From the IMG/VR virus record IMGVR_UViG_3300032282_003523, positions 1-24,451 of that record: a stretch of 24,451 bases of DNA. The stretch is one strand, 5' to 3'. The position numbers and the translations under genes are program-made. Source of the DNA: a virus. The notes below the pieces were generated by a model. It was not told the DNA's origin and searched no databases. It saw nothing but the letters and a program-made list of their open reading frames with translations. This document shows positions 6,823 through 20,492 of this stretch, in pieces; the stretch's first letter is position 1, and the number at the start of each line of letters is the position of its first letter.

Positions 6823-9800
6823 TTATGACTTACTATTCAGGTTTTCTAGCACATCAACTGTGCGTCGTGCATCGCCTGCTACTTGTTCTTGTCGTGTAAG
6901 CATGGCCGTTAAGATTTGATTGGTTTGAGCTTGTTGATCAGCTAGTGTTTTAATATCCGTTTGAGCTTGTGCAACCTTAGCTTGTTCAGCAGTCTGTTGT
7001 GATTCGGGTGTATTGGTTGCTGTTTCAACTGCGGCACCAACTGCGCTGGCAGCGACAGATCCAACACCAGTAGAACCACTTGGCGTCTGAACGTTACCAT
7101 TTTGTCCTCCAGCAAAATTAGCGCCAGCTACATTGGTAGAAATTGCACCTACTGCGCCCGGTGCGACTGAACTAACAGCACCTTGTGCCTTTTGCTTGTT
7201 ATACTGTGCAAGTACCCAGTCTGGATAATTTTTAGCATTAGCAGGATTCATGCTGAGTGACATGCCTATTGCCGACATTTGATCTGGTGTTAACGGTTGG
7301 CCTTGCACAACTGGTTTACCGGCAATATTCAGTGTACCAGATGCTTGTACTTGTCCAGGTTGTGCACCTGGTCTAATTGCATCAAGCTCTCTGTTAATTC
7401 CTCGGTCGCTTGCACCAAATAACTTCTTAGATAACCAGCCTCCAGCAGATTGTGCGGCATTGCCCAATAACGAGTCAGCCAACATACTTCCGCCAATTGC
7501 ACCAGCTGTACCGGTTACTGCTGAAGCTACACCGCCCCCAGCTATAGCACCAACTGTTCCGCCAAGTGCGCCACCTGCGCCAGCGACACCACCTCGTGCA
7601 AGTGAGCCTCCACGAGACTCTGCTATCTTGTCATCAATTTCTTTAAGAGCATCAGTTGCAGTCTTTCGATCAATTTCACCCGACTGGTAACCTTTAATAA
7701 CTGCATCACGTGCGTTTCTTAACTCTCTTATGTCTGTTATTTCGTTTAATGCTGTATCAAATAATGCACCAAATACGCCACCGGCACGTGCTATCTTTCC
7801 TGCACTTCTTGCGCCTGTAGCTAACTTAGAGAATCGTGTTGATGTACCTTCTGCTGGACTTGCAGAAGCGCCAGGTGGTGTTCCTGCCGGTCTAGCCGAA
7901 TTTGCTTTTGCATTTGCTTCAGTCTGATTAGGTAAAGGTTTACCTGTTTCATCTAAAATAAGTTTTTTAGGATTCGTATCAATTTTACCTTCAACCACTG
8001 GAGGCTTAGGTGGTTCCACTGGCTTAGGTGTTGCTTCAATTGGCTTAGGTGCTGGTTTTGGTGGTTCCACTGGCTTTGGTGGTTCCACTGGCTTTGGTGG
8101 TTCCACTGGCTTTGGTGGTTCCACTGGCTTAGGTGCTGGCTTTGCTTCAACTGTAGGTTTTGTACTGGCTGCTTCAATTCCTAATGCTGAGCCTAGTCCA
8201 GTTGCCGCGCTTTTAGCAATTTCAACAGCACGGCTACCGCCTCTTTTAAGTGCTTCTCTCCAGCCTCCGCTTTTAGCGGCATCTCCGGCTGCTTCTGTTG
8301 CGGCACCTGTTCCTGGTGCACCGCCTGGTCCTTTAGGTGTTGGGGCACCCGACGGTGTTCCGGTTGTTCCTGCTGGTGGTGTTCTTCCGCCGCCGCCCCA
8401 ACCGCCTGGCATTCTACCTCCTACTGCACTTTTTGCCAGCCATCCTGCGCCTAGCATTGCAGCCAATACACCTAGGGCTAAGATAACTTGTTTGACAGCG
8501 GTACTTAGATTATTAAAGGATTCGATAACTGTTGTAATAACATTTACAAGTTTGGTTATCCACCCCATCAATGGTTCAACTGCTTGTAAGATAGATCCTT
8601 CAAGACGTTGCAATGATGCGTCAAGATCTTGCTTTGCGGCTGCTGCCTTTGCACCTTCAGTGGTAGGACCGCCTGCTTCAGCTAAATCTGTTCTTGACGA
8701 TGCTAACTGGTTCAAAAATTTCAGCATTGGGCGCATGTTAGGGTCCAATATCATTTGTCCAAGTTGACCTTGATATTTTGGATCTCGTATGATCATCTGT
8801 GCTTGCTGAGCCATGACTTGGTTGAGCTGTTCTGGCGTCATTCCGGCTTTTTGCCCATCCTTGATTGCTTTTTCAAGTTCAGGGAACATCAACATCATCT
8901 GTTGGTATTGACCCCCAAGCATTGAAGGATCGACACCAGCAATAGCTGCCAGCGACATGTCTTCAGCGATGCCTTTACCAAAATCGTCGCTGGCAGCAAC
9001 AAATGCTTTGGCAAGATTATTGACTTGCATAGCCGCATCTTTTTCGCCACGTGCTAATAGTCTGCTAGTGCCTAATCGGAAATAATCATTCTTAGCAAGA
9101 TCATCAAATCTGTTGTTGATTTCTTCAACAGTCTTACCTGTAGAGATGGAAAGACGTCGAACTGTATCAGCTTCGCCTAATGCCATCTGTGTTGCTGTTT
9201 TGACCGCATCGTCGCCTTTAAGTCCAGCTAATGCAACCATTTGTATTGATCGGCCAAATGACCTGTTTAGTTCTTCAAAGCTCTGACCAAAATAATTTGC
9301 TTTGCTGGCTGCTTCGCGGAAAGACTTGATACCATCAGCAAATGCTTGTCCTGTGTTCTTTACGTTGCTATCAATAAGATTAGCCATGCCACCGGCATTT
9401 TTCAAAGCCTTTTCAAATTGTTCAATAGAAAGGCCGGCAGTCTTTGCGGCAATAGCATAGCTAACAGCTGAGTTGGTTAATCCGTCAAGTCCTTGCATGA
9501 GTGCTTTAGTAGTTGTTTCGGCACCCATCTTCCAAATTTTAATCAGTTGCTCAGTAACACCAACAAGCACACTGAAGGCGGCTGCGGCTGCGGCTGCTAA
9601 TGGTGCAAACTTTCCAAAACTAGAAAGTAGCATTCCGCCTAGTGATTCCATCAATCCGCCAAGAATGCTTGTTGCGGCTCCTTTCGGATCTGATCCAATC
9701 TTGCCCAGGCCTTCTTTTACTTTGTTGCCGCCGCCCTCATTACCACCAGCAACACGTTGCCATACATCACTGTATTTTTCACCCGGGCGACGTTTTGTTT

Positions 9801-10713
9801 GTACGTCAACTGACTTAATATCTTTGTCTAGTTCTTTGAAAGCCTTGTTTAACTTACCAGTATCGCCGGCTGCGGCTCTTACTTTTTCCTGGAAATCTCT
9901 AAGAGGTTGTTTTGCCGCATCTCCAAAAATAGCTTTAACATCTTCGCCAATAATACGTGCGGCATCTTTCTTCTGCTGTGGCGACATACGTTTTAGGTCT
10001 TCTCTAACAGTTTTAATTGAACTGCTAGCCCTGTTTGTTGCGGTATCAAATTTAGAACGTGTATCTCTATCAGCAAATGAATAGCGTCCTTTGCTGTATC
10101 TAAACTTATGCCCACCAACCATATTTTCTAAATGTTCAGCATCATTGACGTTGCGATTTCTACGATTTGTGCTTTGATTAGCATTAGTATTGCCTCTAAT
10201 ACCGCCTGATGTATTACGATTGATAGAACTTAGTAGTGCATTAGCACGTGCTTGTTGCTGTGATAAAGACCTAAAACCTACATCAATTGCGCGAGTTAAT
10301 GTACGATTTCCCAATGAAATAGACGATGCACTCATGCCAGCAGATGCTGATGCTCTACCACCAGGTACTTTGGTTTTTGCTTCTAATCGACGTATAGCGG
10401 CAACTACTGCACTTTGTCCTTTGGCAATACCGTTAAGGCCAGCACTCAGAGATTTGATAGCACCTGCATTGCTTTGCTGTGCTTTAGCTGTTTTACCCAG
10501 CTGTCCGACTATGGCTTTTTGTGTAGCCTGGTCTTTTGTCGACGACGACTGTTGTTTGGCAAGTAAATCATTGGTCTTCTTAATAGCTGCCAGTAGGTCT
10601 TTATTACTGCGGCCCATGACAGCAGAAAGACTGTTGATAGATTCTTCCGTGGCCCATTTTGGCCAATTGGCAATCTTGTTAGCGATTTGATCTGGATCTG
10701 GTGGTAATGCCAT
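6823..10713 (-). CDS. Probable tail tape-measure protein, 1296 aa
   Basis: This is the largest protein in the window. Residues 1-330 are Ala/Lys/Gln-rich, helical and charged. Hydrophobic segments, likely membrane-active, occur near 355-395 (FGKFAPLAAAAAAAFSVLVG), near 725-760 (QVILALGVLAAMLGAGWLA), and in a Gly/Ala-rich run near 1060-1100. A Pro-Glu-Lys repeat linker sits near 865-915. Long helices broken by hydrophobic segments are typical of tape-measure proteins, which fix tail length and enter the cell at injection. I see no lytic or peptidase motif. T4 gp29 is 590 aa, so this would be an unusually long counterpart. It lies divergently beside the gp26-like hub-assembly gene, as tape-measure genes tend to lie near their chaperones. 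A weak TTGGATGA site and a late promoter 25 nt upstream support the start at 10713. It could instead be another large tail-associated protein. Confidence 0.6.
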   Translation of the reverse strand: MALPPDPDQIANKIANWPKWATEESINSLSAVMGRSNKDLLAAIKKTNDLLAKQQSSSTKDQATQKAIVGQLGKTAKAQQSNAGAIKSLSAGLNGIAKGQSAVVAAIRRLEAKTKVPGGRASASAGMSASSISLGNRTLTRAIDVGFRSLSQQQARANALLSSINRNTSGGIRGNTNANQSTNRRNRNVNDAEHLENMVGGHKFRYSKGRYSFADRDTRSKFDTATNRASSSIKTVREDLKRMSPQQKKDAARIIGEDVKAIFGDAAKQPLRDFQEKVRAAAGDTGKLNKAFKELDKDIKSVDVQTKRRPGEKYSDVWQRVAGGNEGGGNKVKEGLGKIGSDPKGAATSILGGLMESLGGMLLSSFGKFAPLAAAAAAAFSVLVGVTEQLIKIWKMGAETTTKALMQGLDGLTNSAVSYAIAAKTAGLSIEQFEKALKNAGGMANLIDSNVKNTGQAFADGIKSFREAASKANYFGQSFEELNRSFGRSIQMVALAGLKGDDAVKTATQMALGEADTVRRLSISTGKTVEEINNRFDDLAKNDYFRLGTSRLLARGEKDAAMQVNNLAKAFVAASDDFGKGIAEDMSLAAIAGVDPSMLGGQYQQMMLMFPELEKAIKDGQKAGMTPEQLNQVMAQQAQMIIRDPKYQGQLGQMILDPNMRPMLKFLNQLASSRTDLAEAGGPTTEGAKAAAAKQDLDASLQRLEGSILQAVEPLMGWITKLVNVITTVIESFNNLSTAVKQVILALGVLAAMLGAGWLAKSAVGGRMPGGWGGGGRTPPAGTTGTPSGAPTPKGPGGAPGTGAATEAAGDAAKSGGWREALKRGGSRAVEIAKSAATGLGSALGIEAASTKPTVEAKPAPKPVEPPKPVEPPKPVEPPKPVEPPKPAPKPIEATPKPVEPPKPPVVEGKIDTNPKKLILDETGKPLPNQTEANAKANSARPAGTPPGASASPAEGTSTRFSKLATGARSAGKIARAGGVFGALFDTALNEITDIRELRNARDAVIKGYQSGEIDRKTATDALKEIDDKIAESRGGSLARGGVAGAGGALGGTVGAIAGGGVASAVTGTAGAIGGSMLADSLLGNAAQSAGGWLSKKLFGASDRGINRELDAIRPGAQPGQVQASGTLNIAGKPVVQGQPLTPDQMSAIGMSLSMNPANAKNYPDWVLAQYNKQKAQGAVSSVAPGAVGAISTNVAGANFAGGQNGNVQTPSGSTGVGSVAASAVGAAVETATNTPESQQTAEQAKVAQAQTDIKTLADQQAQTNQILTAMLTRQEQVAGDARRTVDVLENLNSKS
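8060..8131 (-). repeat. Four tandem 18-bp repeats encoding a Pro-Glu-Lys linker
   Basis: On the plus strand GGTGGTTCCACTGGCTTT occurs four times head to tail (8060-8077, 8078-8095, 8096-8113, 8114-8131; the last ends in A). Being 18 bp, it keeps frame and encodes VEPPKP-type hexapeptides on the minus strand. Degenerate copies flank it on both sides (about 7990-8160). The array is inside the tape-measure-like gene and is a plausible site for length variation by slippage. Confidence 0.9.
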
Positions 10714-10802: not shown

Positions 10803-10824
10803 AAAGCAATCGGAGGATCAACAC

Positions 10825-11673
10825 ATGACACAAGCTAACAACCCGTTAGGACAGTATTTTAGAAAACCTGGACTCAATGTCGCATTGCCCAGCGGAGGAA
10901 AGTTTTATAAGACAGCTCCTAAGATAACAGTTGACGGAGAAGTTGCAGTATTTCCTATGACTGCAAAAGACGAACTGCTGGTTAAAAATGCTGACTCTTT
11001 GCTCAATGGTGATGCTATCATCCAATTGATCAAGAGCTGTGTGCCCGATATTGCCAACCCAAGTGAAATGCCTAACCCAGACGTAGATGCGGTATTGCTT
11101 GCCATACGCAAAGCCACATATGGTGAAAAAATGGACATCAGCACCACATGTCCATGTGCTGAATGGTCTGGAACCTACGCAGTCAGTGTAGATACATTGC
11201 TGATCAAGATCAAAGGAATTGATCCTGTAAACGAAGTTGTATTAAGCAATGATCTCACCGTGCGTTTAAGTCCTAGTACTCTTGCTGATCAGAATAGACT
11301 GGGCATGGTACAGTTTGAAAATGTGCGCAAACTACAATCTGTCATGGACTCAGATGACGAAGGATTGAAACTACGTGTTAGTAATGAAGTAACTGGTCGT
11401 AACATTGAACTAGCACAAGAAATTATCTCAAAGGTAATTGATGCAGTTGTTACACCCGAAGGACAAGAAATTACTGACCGTGTGGCTATCAGCGAATGGC
11501 TTAGCCAATTAGAAACCGGTGAATTCAAGAAGATTGAAGACAAGATCAGAGAAGTAAATCAAAGTGGTGCTGAAACTCGTGTAGAAGTGGTATGTGGCAA
11601 AGAAGGATGCGGACAAAAGTTTGAAGTTGACTTTACCCTGGACCCAGTAAGTTTTTTCGCACAAGGCTCCTGA
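10825..11673 (+). CDS. 26: Baseplate hub-assembly protein, gp26-like; possible tail-assembly chaperone, 282 aa
   Basis: It resembles the T4 gp26 family of base-plate hub assembly proteins. Supporting features are the NPLGQYFRKPGLNVALPSGG opening, the FPMTAKDELLVKNAD motif (residues 43-57), and an N-half CPC pair (Cys109, Cys111) that can combine with Cys257 and Cys262 to form a four-cysteine zinc site. T4 gp26 helps assemble the hub around gp27/gp29 and is not a major virion component. CGGAGG lies 9 nt before the ATG. Codons 277-278 are TTT TTC within a T TTT TTC slippery heptamer just before the stop. A -1 shift would bypass the stop and add the following 68-codon frame, giving a 359-aa product. 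This short-plus-extended pattern is that of tail-assembly chaperones. Confidence 0.85.
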   Translation: MTQANNPLGQYFRKPGLNVALPSGGKFYKTAPKITVDGEVAVFPMTAKDELLVKNADSLLNGDAIIQLIKSCVPDIANPSEMPNPDVDAVLLAIRKATYGEKMDISTTCPCAEWSGTYAVSVDTLLIKIKGIDPVNEVVLSNDLTVRLSPSTLADQNRLGMVQFENVRKLQSVMDSDDEGLKLRVSNEVTGRNIELAQEIISKVIDAVVTPEGQEITDRVAISEWLSQLETGEFKKIEDKIREVNQSGAETRVEVVCGKEGCGQKFEVDFTLDPVSFFAQGS

Positions 11674-11694
11674 GCACCACAGACAACGCTCAGG
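11652..11694 (+). promoter_or_regulatory. Putative programmed -1 ribosomal frameshift signal
   Basis: Bases 11652-11658 read T TTT TTC, with TTT and TTC being in-frame codons 277 and 278 of the gp26-like gene. This is the canonical X XXY YYZ form. Ten nucleotides later, CCTGAGC (11669-11675) pairs perfectly with GCTCAGG (11688-11694) across a 12-nt loop, and the zero-frame TGA lies in the 5' arm. After a -1 slip the reading continues from 11658 with 13 sense codons and reaches the ATG at 11697 in frame. All of this is seen directly. Function is inferred. Confidence 0.7.
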
Positions 11695-11696
11695 TA

Positions 11697-11903
11697 ATGA
11701 AGTATGTCGATGAATATAAAATCGAAGCCAGGGGCCTAATCAAAGATGTACAGCAACTGGCAGTTTATAGCGGCCTAAGCTATAACGAAGTAATGAACAT
11801 GAGTTTAGAAGAAAGGCAAGTCCTAGCAGAAGTAGTCAAGGATAAAGTTGAGCTAGATATGAAACTAGCAGGGGTTAAGACAAAAACCCAACAGATGCTA
11901 TAA
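11697..11903 (+). CDS. Small helical protein, probably the frameshift extension of gp26-like (gp51/T-like), 68 codons
   Basis: The frame encodes a charged, helical peptide beginning MKYVDEYKIEARGLIKDVQQ and containing the segment LSYNEVMNMSLEERQVLAEV. I cannot match it to a named family with certainty. By position it corresponds to T4 gp51, another hub-assembly factor next to gp26, but T4 gp51 is much longer (249 aa). Its ATG has only CAGG 2 nt upstream, too close for normal initiation, and lies just past the arm of a hairpin. The frame is open back to 11658 in the -1 frame of the preceding gene. It is therefore best read as the C-terminal part of a frameshift fusion, although independent re-initiation after the TGA is possible. 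Confidence 0.6.
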   Translation: MKYVDEYKIEARGLIKDVQQLAVYSGLSYNEVMNMSLEERQVLAEVVKDKVELDMKLAGVKTKTQQML

Positions 11904-17491: not shown

Positions 17492-18208
17492 ATGCCTATT
17501 ACCACAGCCAGACTCTCAATGAGAGCAGACCCAAATACAGTACTTGGCGCTGAAGCTGCCAACAGCCCTCTATTGGGTTTTTTACGTGCAGGCGGCCCAA
17601 GAGAAAATGGCACAAACGTAATTAGCCAGGGAATAGAAGGAGTTGCCGATTGGATGACATCAAAATTAGGTGCAATCGGCCTTGGCGGCGGTAATGCACT
17701 AGTTCTAAATTTTCCATATACACCAACAATACGTACAGGTATTGAAGCAATGTATACAGAAATGGAACTAACACATACTAACTATCAGCCGCATGCATTC
17801 AACCGCTCCCAAATTCAAAATATTAGCATCAGTGCTAAGTTTACATCACAGACTGATCTTTGGGCAAAACATAGCCTAGGAGTAATTCATTTTTTACGCA
17901 CGATAACAAAAATGCGTTATGGCGAAGGCGATCCTCTAAGAGGTGCACCGCCTCCTGTGCTGAGTTTCACAGCATATGGAAGATACATGTTTGAAAACGT
18001 ACCAGTAGTTGTTAAGAGCTTTAATATCACATTGCCAGACGATGTAGACTATGCAGAGCTAAACGTAGCCGGCCAATATCATGCTGTTCCTACGCTGTTT
18101 ACAATTGATATCGAACTTATGGTACAACGTGCAGTTGGTCCAGTACGTACTGAATTTACCCTTGGTAAATTTGCAGGCGGACAACTAGCAGATAAAGGAT
18201 ACATCTAA
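17492..18208 (+). CDS. Baseplate tail-tube cap/initiator protein, gp48/gp54-like, 238 aa
   Basis: The segment LNFPYTPTIRTGIEAMYTEM, then THTNYQPHAFNRSQIQNISI and AKFTSQTDLWAKHSLGVIHF followed by LRTITKMRYG, is a pattern I associate with gp48/gp54-type proteins of marine T4-like phages. They sit on the baseplate hub and start tail-tube polymerisation. T4 gp48 and gp54 are longer (364 and 320 aa), and I cannot decide between them. If the genome has only one such protein, it may do both jobs. It starts a rightward baseplate cluster and shares a TAATG stop-start overlap with the next gene. The ATG lacks a ribosome-binding site and follows a late promoter by 8 nt, implying leaderless translation. 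Confidence 0.72.
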   Translation: MPITTARLSMRADPNTVLGAEAANSPLLGFLRAGGPRENGTNVISQGIEGVADWMTSKLGAIGLGGGNALVLNFPYTPTIRTGIEAMYTEMELTHTNYQPHAFNRSQIQNISISAKFTSQTDLWAKHSLGVIHFLRTITKMRYGEGDPLRGAPPPVLSFTAYGRYMFENVPVVVKSFNITLPDDVDYAELNVAGQYHAVPTLFTIDIELMVQRAVGPVRTEFTLGKFAGGQLADKGYI

Positions 18209-18504
18209 TGTCAGTTGCATATGACCCTCGTAGTTTCTACTCGGTAACAAATATGAAATCTTCGTATTTAGATTATCTTACACCACCGTCTATTGTTTTA
18301 GACAGTGATCAATCTCAATATTTGATAGATTCAAAATACGCACATCGTCCAGACAAGTTAGCATACGACCTTTATGGTACTGCTAAACTTTGGTGGGTCT
18401 TTGCCGCGATCAATCGAGACAAACTAGAAGACCCATTATGGGACTTTGTTTCGGGGCTACAAATCACTGTACCTAGTCCAAATTCAGTTAAAAGGTTTGC
18501 CTAA
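18208..18504 (+). CDS. 53: Baseplate wedge protein, gp53-like, 98 aa
   Basis: The central stretch YLIDSKYAHRPDKLAYDLYG followed by TAKLWWVFAAINRDKLEDPL is typical of the gp53 family ('.i..ey.yRPDlis...YG...LWW......n...dp'). In T4, gp53 joins adjacent wedges around the hub and carries a LysM-like fold. T4 gp53 is about twice as long (196 aa), so this is a core version. It is bracketed by TAATG overlaps on both sides, implying translation coupled to the gp48/54-like gene upstream and the hub gene downstream. Confidence 0.78.
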   Translation: MSVAYDPRSFYSVTNMKSSYLDYLTPPSIVLDSDQSQYLIDSKYAHRPDKLAYDLYGTAKLWWVFAAINRDKLEDPLWDFVSGLQITVPSPNSVKRFA

Positions 18505-20492
18505 TGCCAGTAACAACATCAGCACTTTTTGATAAACTGACCTTTGATCAAAACACACTGAACAAATATGATAGTGTGGATTACAGACTACGTGTTAGCT
18601 TATTAAGGCCACAAGATGCGCTGTTTATGGATCCAAGCAAAGGTTTTACGTTAGCTGAAAGTGCAACAACCAGCAGATTTATCTTGACTGATTTAGAGTT
18701 GAAACAGTCATATTCACTGAGTCCAAATGCACGTTCAGCATTCTTTGCACAAGGAATCATGACTGTGCTAGATCCCAGCGGATTTAAGTTCCTGGATGCT
18801 ATCATTGAATCTGCTGCCACACTTGGCATTGCCAATGGCATCATCAACTGTCGTTATCTTATCGAGGTTGAATTTCCAGGGCATCTTCCAAATGGCAATG
18901 TACAGATTGACCCAGAACGCGGCATCTATGTAGTACAGGTTTTCAAAGTAGAAACACGCCTGACAGAAAAAGGCGGAGAGTTCAAATTGCATTTTGGTGG
19001 ACTTGACTATGATGCATCTCGACATGTCAATGTTACGTTATCGTCAACTAAGACAATTACACACACAGGACATTTCAAAGACTACATTAAAAAACTAGAA
19101 GACATGCTCAAAGAAGAAGAAAAGCGCAGGGTAAGCAAGGGCGAGCAACAATACGAAAACGAATGGCATTTCATCCTTGAACCTTTTATCTCTTCAAGCG
19201 ATCACTTCAAATTTGAAGCAAACGATCCAGACAAACAACAATTTCGTTCGCAAACATCTAGACCGATGGATGGTAGCAATGGTTTGCTGAACACAAATAG
19301 AGAAGGATCAACTATATTACAATGTATTGATAATGCCATGGCTGACACGAAAGCGATGCAATATGGCCTTAATCAAGACGGTACATTAAGCGATCCTCTA
19401 AAAATTATTGACAAAGCAAAAGCACTTGAAGACGCCAAGAAAATCAAACAAATATATCGTGTAGACGTAATGGTAGATCCGGATAGTAAATGGGATACTA
19501 TCACCAATGACTATGTTAAGAAATTTTACTACTATATCTTTTTACAAGATAGTCCAGATTGGTTTTATGGTCCAGTGAATCAAATTGAAAAAGGCGAATT
19601 TCAAACACAGGTTGCCGCACGTTTAAGCAACGCAGCCTATATCAATAATTTACGCAAGAGATATGATTATTACTTTACCGGCATTAACAGTGAAATTCTG
19701 AAATTTGAAATCAAGGCAGAATATGGATTGTTTGTTGCTGAACATCTTTTAAGACAATATTCGCCAGGAACTGGCGCTACCACTGGCCCAGGGGCAACAC
19801 AACGTCCAGGCTTGGTAAACACAGTATTAAGTGCAGTTGGTTTAGTAAATCCGGCACAACCAATGTCAGGCGCAACTAACTCTGTACAGCAAAAATTAAG
19901 TTATGCTGAAGAAAAAATTCCAACTATACAAACAGGTACAGGCTCAGGACAAGGCGGAGCAAGCGCAGGTGATGCGCCAGTATTTCCTCATTTGTATAGC
20001 TATGATAACAATGCAACAGACAAAGGCACAGGTGCTAACTCAAACCCATCTGAAGCTGAACGCCGTCGAATGAAATTCCAGCATGTATACGACGGACTTA
20101 ATTATACAGGGCCGGATTTTCAAAAGATAACAATGACCGTACGTGGAGACCCATATTGGTTTGGTGCTGCCAAACCGGTGTTTTCACAAGGGCCGTTTGC
20201 CGGACGTATACCATCAGACATTACACGAGCAAAAGATGCACGTGCTGATTTTTTTGTAGGACAACAAAAATTCTATATAGAAGTACGATCAGCAGATCTT
20301 GCAACACAAACTGAATCGGGCCTTGCGCCAACTAATAGAACTATATCAGGTGTATATACAGTAACTGAGTGTAGGAATAGATTTGTTGGTGGCCGATTTG
20401 AACAAGAACTAACCGGTGTCCGTGATCTGATGATACACGGAGAATCAATGTATACGGCTTTAGAAAAAGCTACGACTAGACCAGCAAAATAA
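18504..20492 (+). CDS. Probable baseplate hub protein (gp27 position), 662 aa
   Basis: I do not recognise a motif that proves the family. The N-terminal 200 residues are beta-rich (YDSVDYRLRVSLLRPQDALF, then RYLIEVEFPGHLPNGNVQID, EKGGEFKLHFGGLDY), followed by a charged helical stretch (about 188-215) and a second long domain. A Gly/Thr/Ala-rich linker is near 423-510. The final 150 residues include MTVRGDPYWFG and SGVYTVTECRNRFVGGRFEQ, the latter resembling the end of phage hub and LysM-type tail proteins. Lying immediately before gp5, with which T4 gp27 forms the hub, it is the best candidate for the hub trimer, although larger than T4 gp27 (391 aa). It overlaps the gp53-like stop in a TAATG and ends 15 nt before gp5. 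Confidence 0.55.
   Translation: MPVTTSALFDKLTFDQNTLNKYDSVDYRLRVSLLRPQDALFMDPSKGFTLAESATTSRFILTDLELKQSYSLSPNARSAFFAQGIMTVLDPSGFKFLDAIIESAATLGIANGIINCRYLIEVEFPGHLPNGNVQIDPERGIYVVQVFKVETRLTEKGGEFKLHFGGLDYDASRHVNVTLSSTKTITHTGHFKDYIKKLEDMLKEEEKRRVSKGEQQYENEWHFILEPFISSSDHFKFEANDPDKQQFRSQTSRPMDGSNGLLNTNREGSTILQCIDNAMADTKAMQYGLNQDGTLSDPLKIIDKAKALEDAKKIKQIYRVDVMVDPDSKWDTITNDYVKKFYYYIFLQDSPDWFYGPVNQIEKGEFQTQVAARLSNAAYINNLRKRYDYYFTGINSEILKFEIKAEYGLFVAEHLLRQYSPGTGATTGPGATQRPGLVNTVLSAVGLVNPAQPMSGATNSVQQKLSYAEEKIPTIQTGTGSGQGGASAGDAPVFPHLYSYDNNATDKGTGANSNPSEAERRRMKFQHVYDGLNYTGPDFQKITMTVRGDPYWFGAAKPVFSQGPFAGRIPSDITRAKDARADFFVGQQKFYIEVRSADLATQTESGLAPTNRTISGVYTVTECRNRFVGGRFEQELTGVRDLMIHGESMYTALEKATTRPAK

Follow-up and report, generated by a model that had tools for sequence, protein, structure and literature searches.

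Organization of the Locus

The stretch of DNA analyzed here (24,451 nt, referred to throughout as the window) is a fragment of the genome of a T4-related myovirus. On its plus strand it carries a gene (10825–11673), preceded by the ribosome-binding site GGAGGA (10812–10817, 7 nt 5′ of the ATG at 10825), that encodes a protein of 282 amino acids. This protein matches the Pfam family PF12322 (E = 1.1e-19; 71.5 bits, against a curated cut-off of 24.5) and phrog_150 (E = 3.8e-24), has homologues in the phages Atu_ph07, Phosso, PA5oct, 121Q, and RaK2, and is modeled by AlphaFold with a pLDDT of 90.5. The match above the curated cut-off bears out its original description as gp26-like, and the gene is annotated here as a putative short tail-assembly chaperone (TAC-N).

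Close to the 3′ end of this gene the zero frame reads AGT TTT TTC (11650–11658), which places a candidate slippery heptamer, T TTT TTC (11652–11658), in phase over codons 277 and 278. A spacer of 10 nt (11659–11668) separates the heptamer from a potential 7-bp RNA stem, the 5′ arm of which (CCTGAGC, 11669–11675) includes the zero-frame stop codon TGA (11671–11673) and is joined by a 12-nt loop to the 3′ arm (GCTCAGG, 11688–11694). Between 11631 and 11900 the −1 frame contains no stop codon; it terminates with TAA at 11901–11903 and shares 43 nt with the zero frame. If entered at the slip site, it would supply an extension of 81 codons plus stop (11658–11903, plus strand), forming the C-terminal domain (TAC-C) of a shifted product of 278 + 81 = 359 amino acids, compared with 282 without the shift. 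The heptamer, its phase, the spacer, the stem, the stop within the 5′ arm, the open −1 frame, and both product sizes had been described in the original prediction and were confirmed to the base. The separate 68-codon frame named there corresponds to the 11697–11903 part of the extension, and inspection of its ATG at 11697 likewise revealed no usable ribosome-binding site upstream.

Divergent from the gp26-like gene, and adjoining it, is a minus-strand gene (6823–10713) for a tape-measure-like protein of 1296 amino acids. This assignment, also part of the original prediction, is supported by a weak profile match to phrog_1533 (a tail length tape measure family; E = 7.3e-5 across some 70 residues) and by gene order, since the succession of portal gene, large structural gene, and divergent gp26 is shared with Phosso, PA5oct, 121Q, RaK2, SCTP-2, and CBB; the protein also contains hydrophobic segments at residues 366–391 and 736–762. 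Low-complexity-masked BLASTP among the large neighboring proteins did not link the 1296-residue protein of the window to its counterparts, and in Atu_ph07 the gp26-like gene does not adjoin an annotated tape-measure gene. No enrichment of the T4-type late promoter motif was found within the window.

Conservation of the Slip Site

The bare sequence TTTTTTC is not rare, being found five times in the window against 7.8 occurrences expected, and the fold downstream of the heptamer is unremarkable when this single sequence is considered (z = −1.0). The signal nonetheless stands above chance, because the heptamer is conserved in relatives. In a first comparison set of 29 relatives with 32–91% identity (27 IMG/VR loci together with Atu_ph07 and Phosso), TTTTTTC in the same phase, followed by an open −1 frame, was present in every member. 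The comparison was then widened to 114 loci, of which the window is one and 87 are distinct. The exact heptamer was found, with identical phase and position in the protein, in 113 (86 of the 87 distinct loci), at distances of 10–25 nt from the stop codon and down to approximately 30% protein identity. Comparison of homologues, which had been proposed as a check on the heptamer, therefore came out in favor of the original prediction, the one remaining locus having a longer run of T. That locus (L043, 3349–3356) carries eight T residues followed by CC, which may represent either an extended slip sequence or a sequencing error within the homopolymer.

The distribution of the motif is broad. PA5oct, 121Q, RaK2, and SCTP-2, which are counted within the 114, have TTTTTTC at the equivalent place, and outside that set either TTTTTTC or a run of seven T residues is found in CBB, Vibrio phage 2.275, Munch, Hallingskeid, XaC1, XacN1, CM1, S-SM2, Syn33, phiM7, VmeM-32, D486, and nACB2, outgroups that comprise other jumbo phages, cyanophages, a Sinorhizobium phage, and KVP40-type Vibrio phages.

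Codon statistics were compiled from 59 non-redundant loci. The codon preceding the Phe-Phe pair is AAT, GAT, AGT, ACT, CAT, or CGT (encoding N, D, S, T, H, or R), and its third base is T in all 59, compared with a share of 39–67% for T-ending codons when the same boxes are counted over the rest of these genes. The Phe-Phe pair itself is encoded by TTT-TTC in 58 of the 59 loci, against an expectation of 19%, counts that overstate independence given the relatedness of the sequences, though the residues near the site vary widely. No other in-phase run of six T residues is encountered when these genes are read through, over approximately 16,300 codon positions. Judged by this codon usage, constraint at the slip site acts on nucleotides and not on amino acids alone.

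A homopolymer could also promote slippage of RNA polymerase, such that a subpopulation of mRNAs would encode the fused product, and the T8 run of L043 and the T7 runs of XacN1, CM1, phiM7, VmeM-32, and nACB2 are in keeping with such a mechanism. A run of six T residues is, however, short for RNA polymerase slippage, and the conserved final C, the fixed phase, and a downstream RNA structure, none of which transcriptional slippage needs, suit tandem slippage by the ribosome; the transcriptional route is accordingly considered very unlikely.

The Downstream RNA Stem

Taken alone, the helix of the window has a shuffle p-value of 0.02. Across the loci, helix scores for the 70 nt following the heptamer averaged 17.28, compared with 11.94 (SD 0.33) in 100 shuffled sets and 11.68 in windows lying upstream within those genes. 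The folding z-score was −1.43 directly after the heptamer and about 0 both at 30 nt further downstream and at nearly all upstream offsets. At the level of individual loci the stem did not reach p ≤ 0.05 in 32 of 59. Stem arms and loops vary between subgroups, with loops of 3–16 nt in hairpins and of 42–46 nt in helices that overlap the stop codon. The stem of the window is common only to close relatives in which its arms are unchanged, and there is therefore no covariation evidence for that particular stem. In one subgroup of ten sequences, two-sided (compensatory) changes were found in four of ten pairs, the covariation score was matched by none of 500 shuffles, and sliding the pairing partner by 1–3 bases reduced the paired cells from 90% to 31–51%. 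Whether the slip site has stayed frozen while the adjacent RNA stem was repeatedly rebuilt across T4-related jumbo, cyano-, and KVP40-type phages is, in our estimation, evenly balanced; if so, the family would constitute a natural series for the evolution of frameshift stimulators around a fixed slippery site.

The −1 Extension as a Protein

Among the loci examined, the −1 extension spans 64–97 codons. Stop codons in the −1 frame of homologues, which would have spoken against a shift, were looked for in all 114 loci, and the frame is truly interrupted in a single one, by one codon; the short −1 frames of L064 and L109 simply reach the ends of their contigs. The interruption (L042) is an in-frame TAG at codon 14, counted from the start of the heptamer, at a position occupied by a Glu codon in the closest relatives, after which the homologous frame resumes. 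This TAG could be a sequence error, a sign of decay, or an amber codon read as a residue.

The −1 product can be aligned in register over 51 rows, from the FFR at the slip site to a WYMRGG...sl.eR-like motif, and its AlphaFold model is all-helical (pLDDT 86.7). Structure searches with both this model and that of the zero-frame protein returned no PDB match at E ≤ 0.001 and no solved chaperone relative; one phage protein was matched in BFVD (E = 1.1e-4).

The most direct alternative to a shift is that two genes are present, the small frame being translated alone, either from its own start or by reinitiation past the gp26-like stop. Annotators have listed separate genes, an ATGA overlap in Phosso could permit reinitiation, and the window does possess the ATG at 11697. 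An independent start is nevertheless essentially absent among the 59 non-redundant loci: 15 have no ATG, GTG, or TTG within the first 32 codons of the −1 frame, and a start with a Shine-Dalgarno match of at least 4 nt is present in that interval in a single locus, so independent translation is not general. Furthermore, conservation of the −1 protein begins at the Phe-Phe of the slip site, ahead of any possible start codon, and two genes would leave the heptamer unexplained. Such an arrangement is regarded as exceedingly improbable.

A programmed −1 frameshift that yields a long form of the chaperone, as originally predicted by reference to the G/GT logic, is favored by the conserved heptamer and the open −1 frame devoid of an independent start, and on these sequence comparisons we hold it to be very probably correct.

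Relation to T4 gp26 and gp51

Frameshifting is reportedly conserved in several T4-like groups, the T4 group having 26 and 51 as two distinct genes. T4 gp26 matches PF12322 over residues 1–206 of 208 (215.6 bits; Pfam) and is homologous to the short form described here through this shared family, and a search with gp26 of S-SM2 recovers its counterparts in T4 and in close relatives of T4 (E about 2e-8). T4 gp51 matches the same family over residues 1–201 of 249 (177.5 bits; Pfam) and has 48 further residues. Because gp26 and gp51 both match nearly the full length of PF12322, gp51 corresponds to the whole of the frameshifted product: it consists of a PF12322 region followed by a C-terminal extension and in this respect resembles the long form of the window. 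The view that the 68-codon frame occupies the position of gene 51, put forward in the original prediction, is thus not supported, that frame being instead the C-terminal domain of the long product. At the place equivalent to the slip site, T4 gene 26 reads GAG TTC TTT GAG, with no heptamer and a closed −1 frame, and T4 has probably replaced the shift with two genes for the short and long forms.

It could still be argued that gp51 has a genuine homologue in the small frame, which would then play a role of its own and be no chaperone extension, as several phage records name it "gp51" or "baseplate hub assembly catalyst". T4 gp51 is a full-length gp26 paralogue with a tail, however, and the last ~50 residues of gp51 are the sole possible counterpart of the small frame, a match that is not significant; this reading is barely credible. 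When profiles of the locus alignments were compared with individual T4 sequences, hhalign returned nothing informative (a probability of 2% for the small frame against gp51). A C-terminal HMM scored 6.8–7.8 bits, a level reached by 2 of 1000 shuffles, which is suggestive at most and was not accepted as evidence of homology. On the sequence evidence, the small frame is at most equivalent to the tail of gp51.

The small −1 frame is annotated as a gene of its own, under one or other of these labels, at L125 (3262–3399), L122 (5196–5369), L126 (3214–3375), and L128 (3337–3504). Such labels occur in records of cyanophages (Syn33, S-SM2), a Sinorhizobium phage (phiM7), and Vibrio phages, in which the frame looks as if it belongs to the long product of the gp26 gene.

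Proposed Mechanism and Known Systems

In the mechanism proposed for the programmed frameshift, most ribosomes would terminate at the stop codon at 11671 and release the gp26-like short form of 282 residues (TAC-N). Some would slip back by one base on T TTT TTC at 11652–11658, probably aided by the stem-loop 3′ of the heptamer, and continue in the −1 frame to produce a long form of 359 residues (TAC-NC) with an all-helical C-terminal domain. On the model of lambda gpG/gpGT, the short and long forms may coat and deliver the tape-measure protein during tail assembly, and the 1296-residue neighbor would be their client; homology and analogy together make a chaperone role for both forms likely. Unlike the lambda locus, the present one has T TTT TTC as its heptamer, followed by a stem that spans the stop codon, and its tape-measure-like gene is divergent and not downstream.

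Tail-assembly chaperones of T4-like phages have been identified previously (Vladimirov, Gautam, and Davidson, 2022, Virology 566:9–15, as cited in PMC10885494 and PMC12846349). As that work is cited in the report on PRFect (PMC10885494), some T4-like phages do not frameshift but carry one short gene and one long, fused gene, and as cited in the paper on phage Adele (PMC12846349), the TAC-N genes of T4-like phages carry poly-T −1 signals. In these accounts the T4-like chaperones likewise combine a gp26-family short form, poly-T −1 slippage, and a C-terminal extension. The tail-assembly chaperones of Vandenendeviridae and Andersonviridae also share a poly-T −1 shift and an uninterrupted −1 frame but differ in their invariant motif, GTTTTT, and in the phage families concerned (PMC12846349). 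The novelty implied by the original prediction, for which no such shift had been described for T4 gp26 or gp51, does not hold: going by these citing papers, frameshifting in T4-like chaperone genes is already known, and the novelty of the present case is low. Its interest lies in showing that very divergent large phages have kept a single coding device for their tail-assembly chaperones, and in the consequences for annotation. In genome records a single protein is divided between two genes, or its extension goes under the wrong name of "gp51"; a corrected annotation would give a name to the long product, which the records examined do not list.

Several further sites were observed. In the Salmonella phage Kuttervirus maane (L130, 2507–3310) the heptamer is absent and the gp26-like gene ends GAG ATT TTC ATT TAA; the −1 frame is still open for 53 codons past the stop, and the slip site, if there is one, must differ. 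An uncultured phage of 595 kb (L124, 4193–4202) has GGTTTTTTC at 70 nt ahead of the stop codon of a distantly related gp26-like gene, the −1 extension of which is very different. Within structural genes of the window itself, further in-phase, T-rich heptamers of slippery type (TTTTTTA, TTTTTTT) are found at codons 29 and 133 of 17492–18208 and at codon 582 of 18504–20492.
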